A stretch of 34,347 bases of DNA from assembly GCA_028278405.1 (NCBI GenBank), contig JANQEK010000013.1, forward strand, positions 1 to 34,347. Reading direction: 5' to 3'. Position 1 is the stretch's first letter; the number at the start of each line of letters is the position of its first letter. Both the position numbers and the translations under genes were made by a program. Of this stretch, positions 18,726 through 23,548 are shown in pieces. The notes beneath the pieces are model-generated. The model searched no databases. It was not told the origin of the DNA and saw nothing but the letters and a program-made list of their open reading frames with translations. This DNA comes from Nitrospinaceae bacterium. Its GTDB lineage: Bacteria > Nitrospinota > Nitrospinia > Nitrospinales > Nitrospinaceae.

Positions 18726-19472
18726 TTATTTTGCCGCCGATTTTAAAGGTTCAATTTCGTCCGGGGTCACCACCCGGTACAGGGCCCTGCGTTCTGTCGC
18801 CGTGGAAAGCAATGCCGCCTCCAGCGTCCATCGGTCGAAGGCCTCGGCCAGGGTCGTCGGTTGTTCATCGGAGTCTTCCGATTCAGGTGAACCTTGCTTC
18901 TTTCCCTCTTCCCACAGGCGGCACGCTTCTTTCAAAGCCTGCTTCAGAGAGAGTGATGCAAAATCGGTCTGCTCGATTTGTTTCTGAATCCACTCGGATT
19001 CCTTGTCGTTGCCGGAAATCACCGCGCCTTTTTTAAACATCTCCCAATGCCCATCGTAGTTGAGCCGGAAGAACGACGGCCGGTTGTCGAAATCGATTTC
19101 AGCAAACAACAATTTGACCAGATAAGGCGCCCGCATCACCTCTTCGAAATTCTGTTTCATTGCGGGAGCAATGCCGAACTGAAGCAATCGGGCAAGCGTC
19201 ACATCCTTTTCCGAACGGTTGAACCCTTCCAGATGAGCCATATCCAGCAAAGTCATGCGGAGACGCTCGACATCGGCAGGATGTCCCAGGCTGCCCAGCG
19301 CAATGCGGTCATACACCTCAAATATTTTTCCGGGTTGGGCGGCAAACCCCATTACCAGCGCACCCTCTTTGTAAGGGACTGCGAGTACCGGTTGACCTTT
19401 TTTCAGTTTCTCCTGGACATAACTGTGGCGGGTGGAAATGGCCTCCATCCAGCGAAACGGTTCGTCAAACAT
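18726..19472 (-). CDS. prcA: Proteasome alpha subunit
   Basis: Forms the outer heptameric rings that gate the 20S chamber. The 248-residue protein has the alpha-type N-terminal helix (FDEPFRWMEAISTRHSYVQEKLKKG), followed by the Ntn-fold strand QPVLAVPYKEGALVMGF and the segment KIFEVYDRIALGSLGHPADVERLR. It has no catalytic N-terminal threonine, as expected for alpha. The sequence is strongly diverged from actinobacterial PrcA, but order and length agree. It lies 2 bases after prcB and 1 base before pafA. Confidence 0.88.
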   Translation of the reverse strand: MFDEPFRWMEAISTRHSYVQEKLKKGQPVLAVPYKEGALVMGFAAQPGKIFEVYDRIALGSLGHPADVERLRMTLLDMAHLEGFNRSEKDVTLARLLQFGIAPAMKQNFEEVMRAPYLVKLLFAEIDFDNRPSFFRLNYDGHWEMFKKGAVISGNDKESEWIQKQIEQTDFASLSLKQALKEACRLWEEGKKQGSPESEDSDEQPTTLAEAFDRWTLEAALLSTATERRALYRVVTPDEIEPLKSAAK

Positions 19473-19474
19473 GA

Positions 19475-20275
19475 TTATTTCCTTTTTGTGGATTCCTGGA
19501 AGAGGACAGCCAGTTCCTCTTCCGGCATGAACCGGTAACCTTGATCGGTGATACTGGCGATAACCGGATAGATTTTATCTTCGGGGCGGCCTTGTCCAGT
19601 GGCGCTGTCAAACTGCCCGGCGGTTTGCAACAGCCGAATGGCCAGTTGAGCGGCTTCCTTCAAAGTTCTTTGCCCAAGTTTTTGAGCACCCCAGAGGTCT
19701 TCGTATTCGAGGATACCGCGAATGACCGGCGATCCGGAGCCGGTGGCGGTGTGGGTCTGGATTTCAAACTGGGCTCCCAGAATATCGTAAAAATAAATGT
19801 AGGGCTTGGCTTCTCTTTGATCGTAGGACGCAAAAATGGGACTGACCGCGCCAACTCCCTGCATAGCGAGCCCCATATTATCCTTCAACAGTTTGGACAA
19901 GGCGCGGATTTTGCCTTCGGTGCTTAACGGCTGCAGTTGTGACCGTCGATAGTATTCGAAATTGTGCGAAAGAATGCGCGCCATTTCGAATGCCGTGGCG
20001 GGAACCCCGGCGATGGCCATCAGTGAAAAGTCGTCGATGGGAATCACCTTGTCGCACCGCTCGTACATAATGGCATTGCCAGCGGTGGCACGGCGATCTC
20101 CGGCAACGATCACACCATCCTTGAAATGGAACGCCATCACGGTCGTGCCCTGGGGCACACTGGCCTTGTCGATGGCGGTCAATCCCGCAATCGCCTTGGG
20201 CCAGGAATATCCCGACCGCTCGAGGAGATCGATAAAATCTCCCGGCCCGCTAAAATTTTCCGGTTTATCGCTCAT
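19475..20275 (-). CDS. prcB: Proteasome beta subunit (catalytic)
   Basis: Threonine protease of the inner rings of the 20S proteasome. The precursor has 266 residues with a 43-residue propeptide; cleavage before Thr44 in PQG-TTVMAF would expose the catalytic threonine. Counting from it, Asp17 (AGDRR) and Lys33 (CDKVI) fall at the catalytic positions and GSGS lies at the expected downstream site. The ATG at 20275 overlaps the modifier's TGA (ATGA, 20272-20275), a sign of translational coupling. All catalytic residues are present, so an active protease is expected. Confidence 0.93.
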   Translation of the reverse strand: MSDKPENFSGPGDFIDLLERSGYSWPKAIAGLTAIDKASVPQGTTVMAFHFKDGVIVAGDRRATAGNAIMYERCDKVIPIDDFSLMAIAGVPATAFEMARILSHNFEYYRRSQLQPLSTEGKIRALSKLLKDNMGLAMQGVGAVSPIFASYDQREAKPYIYFYDILGAQFEIQTHTATGSGSPVIRGILEYEDLWGAQKLGQRTLKEAAQLAIRLLQTAGQFDSATGQGRPEDKIYPVIASITDQGYRFMPEEELAVLFQESTKRK

Positions 20276-20448
20276 TGACCCGTTCGCTGTTTGTATTTTT
20301 CAGATTGCTTGGGGTCGACTTTTTTCATTCGCTTGAGAAGATCATCGCGCCCCGGCCGATTCACATCGGGTTTGGAAGGACCGCTGTCCTTCCTGTCGGG
20401 GGTGGATTCTTTCTTCTCTTCCCGTCTGAGGGGATCATTCATTTCCAT
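20272..20448 (-). CDS. Ubiquitin-like modifier (UBact/Pup-like), C-terminal Gly-Gln
   Basis: A 58-residue disordered-looking, charged protein: MEMNDPLRREEKKESTPDRK opens it, then a stretch with PSKPDVNRPGRDD, then a lysine-rich helix (LLKRMKKVDPKQSEKYK) and the ending QRTGQ. It matches the UBact type of Pup-like protein described from Nitrospinae and other Gram-negative phyla. Because it ends Gly-Gln, Dop-type deamidation is needed before ligation. ATG 20448 is favoured by GGAG at 20460-20457 (8-base spacing); ATG 20442 would give 56 residues and overlaps the dop TGA (ATGA, 20439-20442). The stop overlaps the prcB start. The gene is short enough for length-filtered gene callers to miss. Confidence 0.9.
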   Translation of the reverse strand: MEMNDPLRREEKKESTPDRKDSGPSKPDVNRPGRDDLLKRMKKVDPKQSEKYKQRTGQ

Positions 20449-21929
20449 GCAAACTGCTCCTTGTTTGAATCCAGGACCTGTAGGACATCTTCTTTGCTGA
20501 TGAGTCCGGACAGATCCAAATACTCACCATTGTTGAATTCGATTCCCGTCCAATGGATGTTTTTAATATGATCGCGCTCCTGATCGACTGCCTGCCCTCG
20601 AATCCGCGCCCGTGTATCCTGAGGGGCCCGGTGGACGGCGTCGTCGATTTTGTCCTGCTCAATCAATCCCGCTACGCTTCCCTGATCTCGCAGGCTGTAA
20701 TACAATCCGCGTTCCGGGTTAAGATTATGATACTCCAAATCGAGACTTTGTAAAATCGGGTCTTCCCAGTGCAAACCCTCCGCTTCCATAAAATCGCTGA
20801 AAAGGCTTTTCTTGATGGCCCAATCAATGCGATCGGCCAGCTTTTCCGGATGATGCCGGTGATCGTCCAAAGTCCGGCCCCATTCGCGGGTGACCCAGTC
20901 CCACTCTTCCTTATCGTCGGAGAAACCCGTGTGCTTCAAAGTCTGCTCCAGATACCACTCCTGGATTTCCAGAGGGGTGACGGTTTTCCCAGACTGCAAT
21001 TTTAAAAGAACTTTGCCGGTGGTGTCCCGCGACACGCGCTGGACATCGGCCACCGGGTCCGCCAACTCAAACGGTGTTTCCAGTTTGCGGGCACCGATCA
21101 GCGTCAATACCAGCCGGGTGGCGCCCACCTTCAACGCCGTCGCATAGGGCGACATATTGGCGTCTCCCAATATCAAATGCAAACGCCGGTAATCTTCCGT
21201 TGCATGCGGCTCATCGCGGGTATTGATGATGGGCCGCAGGATCATGGTCTCGATACTGAGAACGCTGTCTATAAAATCGGAGCGTTGTGCCAGCTGCAAA
21301 CCGGTGAATCCGTCTTCGTTCTTCCGTTCCGCTCCAACCTTTCCCGCACCGGCGTACAATTGCCGCGTTACCAGAAACGGCACCAGTTGATGGACCCAAT
21401 CCTCGAACGGCTGGTTCCGCGGAATTAAATAGTTGTCATGCGTGCCGTAACTGTGTCCGCTGTAATCCGTATTGTTTTTAAACAACTGTAAAAAGTCACC
21501 GCCCAGCTCCTGATTGCGGAGGCGGCAGCATTCGCCGACGATGTGCTCCCCGGCCAGATCGTGTGCTACCAGATCGAACAGCGTGCGGCATTCCGGCGTG
21601 CTGTATTCCGGGTGCGTGTGATCGTTATAAAAACGCGCACCGTTGGTCAACACCCGGTCGCTTTTCATTTCCCAATACGAGTAGGGCCGCTTGCGATCCT
21701 CTTCGCAGAATTCGTCTTCCTCTTCATCCTGGGCCAGCCGGGATACCTGAAACCCGCGCATATCCAAATGCGTGCGCTCCCGGTTATACGCCCAGACCTT
21801 GAATGCGCTCTTCACTCCACAGCGGGCCAAAAGCCACATCGATTCTTCGACCGGATCGGATTCCTCCTGATCCTCCCGGATAATGCCGTATTCCGTTTCG
21901 ATCCCCAGCAGAGGTACAATTTCGCTCAT
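20439..21929 (-). CDS. dop: Dop-type deamidase/depupylase
   Basis: Glutamine-synthetase-fold enzyme that deamidates the modifier's C-terminal glutamine and can remove it from targets. The 496-residue protein has GIETEYG (Glu11), the DMRGFQVSRLAQ segment near 56-67, which corresponds to the Dop loop in actinobacterial Dop, and the metal/catalytic stretch NGARFYNDHTHPEYSTPEC with Asp103. Later come LFKNNTDYSGHSYGTHDNYL, RPIINTRDEPHATEDYRRLHLILGDANMS and HRAPQDTRARIRGQ. The Dop loop and the NDHTHPEY signature distinguish it from PafA downstream. ATG 21929 overlaps the ARC stop (ATGA). Confidence 0.9.
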   Translation of the reverse strand: MSEIVPLLGIETEYGIIREDQEESDPVEESMWLLARCGVKSAFKVWAYNRERTHLDMRGFQVSRLAQDEEEDEFCEEDRKRPYSYWEMKSDRVLTNGARFYNDHTHPEYSTPECRTLFDLVAHDLAGEHIVGECCRLRNQELGGDFLQLFKNNTDYSGHSYGTHDNYLIPRNQPFEDWVHQLVPFLVTRQLYAGAGKVGAERKNEDGFTGLQLAQRSDFIDSVLSIETMILRPIINTRDEPHATEDYRRLHLILGDANMSPYATALKVGATRLVLTLIGARKLETPFELADPVADVQRVSRDTTGKVLLKLQSGKTVTPLEIQEWYLEQTLKHTGFSDDKEEWDWVTREWGRTLDDHRHHPEKLADRIDWAIKKSLFSDFMEAEGLHWEDPILQSLDLEYHNLNPERGLYYSLRDQGSVAGLIEQDKIDDAVHRAPQDTRARIRGQAVDQERDHIKNIHWTGIEFNNGEYLDLSGLISKEDVLQVLDSNKEQFAWK

Positions 21930-23548
21930 ATGATTGACCGGCTGAGGGTATCGGAGGCAGCCTGATCGGAATCGTTGGGCCGCCGTACCCGCGCCACGTT
22001 CTTGGGATCAAAGTCGAGCAACTGGAGCCAGTCTTCCATATTGGAATCGGCCGGCAAAACGCTGTTTTCCGTAAACTCGTTGTGCAGGGCTTGGATCATA
22101 TCGTCTTTGGTGATTTTCAATTCTTCCCCGGCAATAGCACGTTCAATGGAACGTTCCTTGGCGCGCAAAACGATTCCTTCCAGAATGGCTCCGGAAATAA
22201 AATCCTTCCAATAGAGTTTCTTGAACTCCCCACTGCGGAGAGTCAAAATCAGTGCTTCCCGCTCCGGAGATTTGCTGAACAAATGGTCCAGGAAAGGATG
22301 AATCAGGTCCTTCTCACGGTTCCCATCGATCGGGAGATTCGGCTTGAGATAGACGTTCAGGATAGATTCACAATCCTCACGATTGGGCCGCCCCACCTTG
22401 ATTTTGCGGTCGATGCGCCCCGGTCTTAAAATTGCCGGATCGATTAAATCCGGGCGGTTGGTGGCGAGGATCACCACCATTTCGCGTACCGATTGGATTC
22501 CATCCATCTCCGCACAGAACATTGGAACCAGGGTATTGGAGATATTGTTGACGCGCATGGCCTGCCGTGTGCCAAGCACCGATTCGGCCTCGTCGATGAA
22601 AATGAATGGAAGCTTTCCTTTTTCCTTGTACTCGCGTGCGCGTTTGAAAATTTCACGGACCTTGCGTTCCGATTCGCCGAGCCACATGTTAAGAATTTCA
22701 GGTCCCTTGACGTGGATGAACCGGCCTTCCAGATCCTTGCTGCCATCATCCTTGGATTTGAGCTGGTCGACGACATCGGACAAAATGGCTTTACCGATCA
22801 GCGTTTTGCCGCAACCGGGCGGGCCGTAAAACAGAAACCCTTTGGGCATCCGGTATTCCATCTTGTGAAGAATCTCTTCGTGCAGAATGGGGTATTCAAT
22901 AACCTTGCGGACTTCCTCGATGACTTTCTCCTGTCCACCCACCTGCTGCCAGGTAACGGGAATGTAATCGTCTTCCACCAGCGATTTGGACTGGCGTTTG
23001 GGAAGGCGCTTCATGATGACCTTCTGGGTTGGGTCGAGAACCACCTCATCCCCTTCTTTGAAAGTTTCCTGTTCCAGCCCGGTGCAGGGGATCACCATGG
23101 ATTCGGAAGTGTTGGAACCGCCACCGACCAGCCAATGACCATCATCCAAACGTGACACAATACGAGCGATCGGGCCTCTTTCGGGCAAAGGAAGTTTGGC
23201 GATTGCAACAAACCCTTCGTTGACTGCAACCTGGTCTCCTACCTTCAGCTCTCCGTCTTCAAGAATTTCTGGAGAAACCGCCGCCTGGTATTCGGTTCCG
23301 CCAACATTCAAACGGTACAAATCCTCCTGCCCCTTGCCGAGAATAGTCCCAATACGATGGGCCGGCAGCTTGAGCTGGCGGATGGTTTCTTCCAGTGTTT
23401 TGATTTTGAGATTATACTGCTGGGCAGACTGCTGGGCTTGCAGCAAGGCGTCGCGCAGATCGAAAATTTTTTCCTGAAGGTCCGGCCGGTCCGCCGTTTC
23501 CTCCAGCATTTGATCGATCAATTCTATAATATGGGTTGGATCTCCCAT
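21926..23548 (-). CDS. arc: Proteasome-associated AAA+ ATPase (ARC/Mpa)
   Basis: Hexameric unfoldase that feeds tagged proteins into PrcAB. The 540-residue protein has an N-terminal coiled coil (about residues 10-60), two OB-type domains (about 65-180), and one AAA+ domain with Walker A GPPGCGKT (242-249), pore-loop region EILNMWLGESE (284-294), Walker B FIFIDE (315-320), and ATNRPDLIDPAILRPGRIDRKI. The C-terminus ends LSRSII, not the GQYL found on actinobacterial Mpa/ARC. It heads the operon after a promoter at 23577-23606, with AAGG before ATG 23548. Confidence 0.94.
   Translation of the reverse strand: MGDPTHIIELIDQMLEETADRPDLQEKIFDLRDALLQAQQSAQQYNLKIKTLEETIRQLKLPAHRIGTILGKGQEDLYRLNVGGTEYQAAVSPEILEDGELKVGDQVAVNEGFVAIAKLPLPERGPIARIVSRLDDGHWLVGGGSNTSESMVIPCTGLEQETFKEGDEVVLDPTQKVIMKRLPKRQSKSLVEDDYIPVTWQQVGGQEKVIEEVRKVIEYPILHEEILHKMEYRMPKGFLFYGPPGCGKTLIGKAILSDVVDQLKSKDDGSKDLEGRFIHVKGPEILNMWLGESERKVREIFKRAREYKEKGKLPFIFIDEAESVLGTRQAMRVNNISNTLVPMFCAEMDGIQSVREMVVILATNRPDLIDPAILRPGRIDRKIKVGRPNREDCESILNVYLKPNLPIDGNREKDLIHPFLDHLFSKSPEREALILTLRSGEFKKLYWKDFISGAILEGIVLRAKERSIERAIAGEELKITKDDMIQALHNEFTENSVLPADSNMEDWLQLLDFDPKNVARVRRPNDSDQAASDTLSRSII

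Follow-up and report, generated by a model that had tools for sequence, protein, structure and literature searches.

A conserved UBact gene directly upstream of prcB in the proteasome operon of a Nitrospinota genome

A Nitrospinota genome carries a genuine and conserved UBact gene, the short minus-strand frame at positions 20272-20448. It lies in a window of 34,347 nucleotides, by which we mean the whole stretch of DNA that was analysed, and a sequence-only reading of this window had proposed a 58-codon gene ending in QRTGQ, encoding a UBact- or Pup-type modifier with a terminal Gln. We confirmed the frame with this length and ending, and the family models, the operon and the relatives support such a modifier. 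When the frame was compared with UBact sequences, as that reading had suggested, it exceeded the cut-offs of both curated models: PF20513 of Pfam (74.6 bits against a cut-off of 27.8, E=5e-21) and the NCBIfam equivalog NF033388 (74.7 bits against a cut-off of 35, E=5e-21). Its neighbours encode enzymes of the Dop/PafA type and 20S proteasome subunits, and its QRTGQ end fits R-x-G-[EQ], which we take to be the UBact-type C-terminal motif. Overall, the gene very probably encodes a small, disordered protein that acts as the modifier in a Pup-like proteasome system of Gram-negative bacteria and is coupled to prcB through ATGA, a joint explanation in which we have high confidence as a whole. A PDB search with the UBact protein gave chance matches only (best E=1.2), and the AlphaFold model contains two short C-terminal helices (36-42 and 46-56) at low confidence (mean pLDDT 63.6, pTM 0.25); the tag is probably disordered. 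The gene is one species' copy of an already described family, for which curated Pfam and NCBIfam models exist. The family was reportedly described by Lehmann et al. in 2017 (BBRC 483:946), in a paper said to have included Nitrospinae already. The features of the locus are listed in Table 1.

Table 1. Positions of the UBact gene, its start signals and its operon partners in the window.
Feature	Position	Strand	Basis or remark
arc/mpa, proteasomal AAA ATPase, ends RSII	21926..23548	(-)	PDB 5kwa E=3e-80; AAA models
dop, predicted UBact deamidase/de-conjugase, 496 aa	20439..21929	(-)	PF03136; PDB 4b0r E=4e-94; Dop-loop and catalytic residues
Shine-Dalgarno (SD) AAGGAG inside dop 3' end	20457..20462	(-)	8 nt before ATG 20448
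UBact gene	20272..20448	(-)	58 aa from SD-proximal ATG; C-terminal end QRTGQ
Second in-frame ATG, overlaps dop stop as ATGA	20440..20442	(-)	Disfavoured start; SD spacing 14 nt
ATGA overlap, UBact stop and prcB start	20272..20275	(-)	prcB ATG shares its A with the Gln codon CAA (last base)
prcB, proteasome beta subunit, GTT (Thr1) processing site	19475..20275	(-)	PF00227, TIGR03690; alignment
prcA, divergent proteasome alpha subunit	18726..19472	(-)	PF00227 33.7 bits
pafA, predicted UBact ligase, no Dop-loop	17267..18724	(-)	PF03136; PDB 4b0t E=6e-74; residue map

Within the choice between UBact and Pup that the sequence-only reading had left, the evidence fell on the side of UBact. It is very unlikely that the tag belongs, as a divergent member, to the Pup family itself and came in with a pup locus of actinobacterial origin. 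Although the actinobacterial order arc-dop-pup-prcBA-pafA is identical (as given in the available text of PMC3511204) and the Dop and PafA enzymes are homologous (matches to PDB 4b0r and 4b0t), the tag itself departs from Pup. The Pup profile PF05639 had no match in the whole window genome, nor did the UBact protein alone give a Pup match at E<=10, and the similarity between the UBact and Pup profiles was not significant in hhalign (probability 0.35%, E=0.17); on these results we rejected Pup membership. According to the same text, the Pup C-terminus ends in Gly-Gly-Gln/Glu, whereas UBact ends in Thr-Gly-Gln. The net charge is also opposite: UBact carries +5, with +6 in its last 28 residues, against -12 and -8 for M. 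tuberculosis Pup, and the 51 distinct UBact proteins ranged from +3 to +6. Given so short a protein, UBact and Pup may still have a remote common origin.

On the minus strand, the operon of the window runs arc-dop-UBact-prcB-prcA-pafA. An ATGA overlap joins the arc stop to the dop start. At the dop/UBact junction (minus strand, ...AAGGAGCAGTTTGCATGGAAATGAATG...), a further ATGA overlap joins the second ATG of the UBact frame (20442) to the dop stop TGA (20441-20439), and at the UBact/prcB junction (minus strand, ...GGTCAATGAGC...) the overlap is at 20275-20272. The latter had been claimed from the window, and it recurred across the relatives: the junction reads CAATGA in 56 of the 58 genomes with UBact, CAATAA in one and GAGTGA in one. 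Tight coupling to both neighbours had been proposed as well. This held for prcB, which lies immediately downstream of UBact in 58/58 genomes, and not in general for dop, which is directly upstream in 35 genomes, with prcA in this place in 21 (genera g12 and g16) and a contig edge in 2. The gene order in g12 and g16 (e.g. L067, L074 and L084) is dop-prcA-UBact-prcB-pafA instead of dop-UBact-prcB-prcA-pafA, possibly through tandem duplication with loss. In six g16 genomes (L064, L076, L065, L020, L024 and L030), dop and prcA also flank an additional, diverged copy of prcB. L064 and L076 retain an intact QG/TTV site in this second prcB; in L065 it reads in two frames, and in L020, L024 and L030 it is cut. 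In L091 (G045) and L086 (G046), an unrelated frame of ~630-660 aa follows prcB, with no prcA or pafA within the stretch; the pafA of G045 sits on another contig (C21), and G046 gives one Pup_ligase match only.

The UBact frame offers two start codons, the first ATG (20448) being located inside dop, 6 nt upstream of the second (20442). The longer form from ATG 20448 is favoured, because the SD spacing is kept in 56/56 genomes while the second ATG is unconserved in two (G011 and G009). The count covers the 56 readable genomes of the 58 with UBact, two being unreadable owing to contig breaks; GGAG stands 8 nt before the SD-proximal ATG in 55 of them and 7 nt before it in 1, which agrees with the earlier view that the better-spaced ribosome-binding site points to the longer start. 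That the main product is instead the shorter form, made from 20442 by ATGA termination-reinitiation from dop, appears very improbable. The window does have the ATGA overlap with the dop stop, and most relatives have a second ATG, but GGAG is mostly 14 or 29 nt away from that ATG where it is present, and in G011 the codon is CTG. In the rest of genus g2 an insertion parts the two ATGs and the ribosome site keeps with the first, while the single ATG of G009 stands at SD+8. The spacing is likewise unchanged where prcA rather than dop adjoins upstream (g12 and g16).

Of the 77 genomes of the phylum, 58 gave a UBact match in whole-genome searches; the genome of the window gave a single match, and the 14 controls gave none. 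The 58 all belong to the window's order, for which 64 genomes were searched, and UBact was absent from the 13 remaining genomes of the class. The Pup-ligase family PF03136 was present in 60 of the 77 genomes, and a ligase without UBact was found in G020 and G032 only. An intact operon with a broken UBact frame, the case that the sequence-only reading had named as its refutation, was looked for among the 77 genomes and was not seen. We rejected G032 and G020 as relatives with a broken frame, since in both the contig ends within dop. UBact and ligase were both absent from four genomes of the same order (G005, G026, G042 and G049), so a genome can lack the system or have lost it. A second, weak UBact match in G041 was rejected as an extra copy and taken as the same gene split by a contig break: the match on C31 stops 2 bases short of the contig end, and that on C60 begins at base 31. 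The close relatives of prcB (33 loci) were labelled Nitrospinaceae, Nitrospina, Nitrospinia or Nitrospinota, apart from two labelled Nitrospirae. A third, partial Pup_ligase match (C-terminal part, profile 336-437) was observed outside the operon at G018:C37:7191-7502.

The UBact sequence is under purifying selection. We compared pN and pS in 57 genomes including the window, leaving out G041, whose frame is cut. Over the last 42 codons, pN was smaller than pS in 56/56 comparisons with the window, and within the window's genus pS was 0.18-0.78 against a pN of 0-0.097. The segment LKRMk.VDPKQ.E.YKQRTG is nearly invariant among the 57 genomes, and the tail is QRTGQ in 57 of the 58 genomes with UBact. 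A chance or regulatory frame between dop and prcB, such as a leader or coupling peptide, might likewise be short and overlap both neighbours, yet it is hardly credible here given the pN and pS values, the invariant C-terminus and the persistence of the frame where the upstream neighbour switches from dop to prcA; the matches to PF20513 and NF033388, the absence from the controls and pN<pS in every comparison together mean that it is not a chance frame.

The only Glu-ending UBact is that of G009 (L079), with QRTGE encoded by GAG followed by TGA, so that the prcB start there would overlap as GTGA rather than ATGA. Both Dop and PafA of this genome have the catalytic Asp, and the Dop is complete with an intact Dop-loop. 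In the Pup system, species have either PupQ or PupE, and Dop also removes tags (available text of PMC3511204); a Glu-ending UBact beside an intact Dop fits this precedent by analogy.

None of Dop, PafA, ARC, PrcB and PrcA reached its NCBIfam equivalog cut-off. Dop scored 409.6 of 492.3 bits with its best model, TIGR03688, PafA remained below the cut-off of TIGR03686, and ARC scored 386.9 bits against 504.75 with TIGR03689. We therefore regard all five as divergent homologues, and actinobacterial functions as carried over to them by homology. PrcA is very divergent, reaching 56.7 bits where TIGR03691, the bacterial alpha-subunit model, requires 139.

The equivalents of A. cellulolyticus Dop Y92, D94, E99, H155, R205, R227 and H241 were identical in 43/43 clade Dop frames, and those of E8 and E10 were identical wherever the frame reaches them. 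D94 and R205 presumably belong to the catalytic set of that enzyme. Catalytic roles of residues and the Dop-loop have been described for A. cellulolyticus Dop (available text of PMC8599861), and the window Dop contains the Dop-loop, the catalytic Asp and the Mg ligands. PafA keeps the same catalytic set in 22 or 23 of 23 frames, one frame being gapped at E8 and E10. With reference to the residue roles given for C. glutamicum PafA in the available part of PMC10465538, the catalytic Asp (D64) was kept in 22/23 frames and R137, R207 and R218 in 23/23. At site 3, all 23 frames have Gly for R442 and Arg for K444, and R32 and R38 of site 1 are not kept. PafA thus has the catalytic Asp and the substrate-guiding Arg cluster and no Dop-loop, with changes at R32, R38 and R442; the presence of the loop in Dop and its absence from PafA were seen in both the window and G009. 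One of the 23 PafA frames is without the Tyr/Asp/Glu motif and may be truncated or mis-framed. The net charge over the same span is -28 for the window Dop against -15 for A. cellulolyticus Dop, and it is -21 for the window PafA against -13 for C. glutamicum PafA, each measured against this one reference. Across the clade, Dop ranges from -28 to -17 (43 frames) and PafA from -27 to -6 (23 frames), near or overlapping the reference values, so any shift of the enzyme charges in the direction opposite to UBact would be weak.

The C-terminus of ARC is RSII, RSVI, RSIL or RSMI (RS[IVM][IL]) in 24/24 readable frames, at 21926-21937 in the window, and a GQYL or HbYX 20S-docking motif is absent from the ARC end in the same 24 frames. 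In mycobacteria, GQYL docks Mpa on the 20S core (available text of PMC12288473). Residues 1-63 of ARC have a net charge of -5 in both the window and G019, the two sequences compared.

Taking the pupylation steps outlined in the available portions of PMC12288473 and PMC3511204 as the basis for homology, we propose how the system would operate. UBact would be translated from ATG 20448, with the ribosome site inside the dop end, and Dop would deamidate the C-terminal Gln58 to Glu. PafA with ATP would then phosphorylate the Glu side chain and attach it to lysines of the substrate. Capture of the tag would fall to the ARC coiled coil, and ARC would thread the substrate into the PrcA/PrcB 20S core, where it would be degraded, and Dop would later remove the tag. 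Deamidation, ligation, recognition and degradation by the UBact system are in this way suggested by analogy with pupylation.

Among the titles and abstract beginnings of the open literature, a scope that leaves most subscription papers outside, we found no experimental study of UBact; the experimental papers found on bacterial protein tagging centre on the acidic actinobacterial Pup. The present analysis contributes the start codon, conservation across the clade, a natural variant that ends in Glu beside an intact Dop, an altered gene order with a second prcB, and the differences from Pup in charge and ARC tail. The clade, which includes Nitrospina relatives, has both Gln- and Glu-ending UBact beside intact Dop, and therefore the need for deamidation and the main role of Dop (tag removal?) are open to test. 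The settled start codon is useful for proteomic searches, and a predictable mass remnant on lysines is expected because 57/58 genomes encode the same QRTGQ tail.

Compared with actinobacterial Pup (PF05639), the system is alike in having a small tag, probably disordered, with a terminal Gln or Glu and dop, pafA, arc and prcBA as partners in the same order. Two C-terminal helices are a further likeness: Dop-bound Pup has two helices (available text of PMC8599861), and the prediction for UBact, at low confidence, has two as well. By contrast, UBact has no sequence-profile match to Pup, ends in TGQ instead of GGQ, and is basic rather than acidic, and its partner ARC ends in RS[IVM][IL] where the mycobacterial protein ends in GQYL. 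A tentative reading, for which the odds are rather poor, is that UBact of this clade is the charge-reversed counterpart of Pup, with a basic tag, re-tuned Dop and PafA grooves, an acidic ARC coiled coil and RS[IVM][IL] docking instead of GQYL/HbYX; if this were true, the UBact and Pup systems would be mutually orthogonal. Pup-like genes outside Actinobacteria, in Nitrospirae, Verrucomicrobia, Planctomycetes and Deltaproteobacteria, appear in the available text of PMC2588565; these resemble the window gene in lying beside a PafA gene and in encoding a short protein that ends in G[EQ], and differ in being treated there as Pup; Nitrospinae is not named in the same available text. Dop/PafA homologues in Nitrospinae drafts are mentioned in the available part of PMC7947786. 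Finally, the window UBact is like known UBact (PF20513/NF033388) in sequence model, size, terminal G-[EQ] and proteasome/ligase operon, and it shows no difference that breaks membership of that family.
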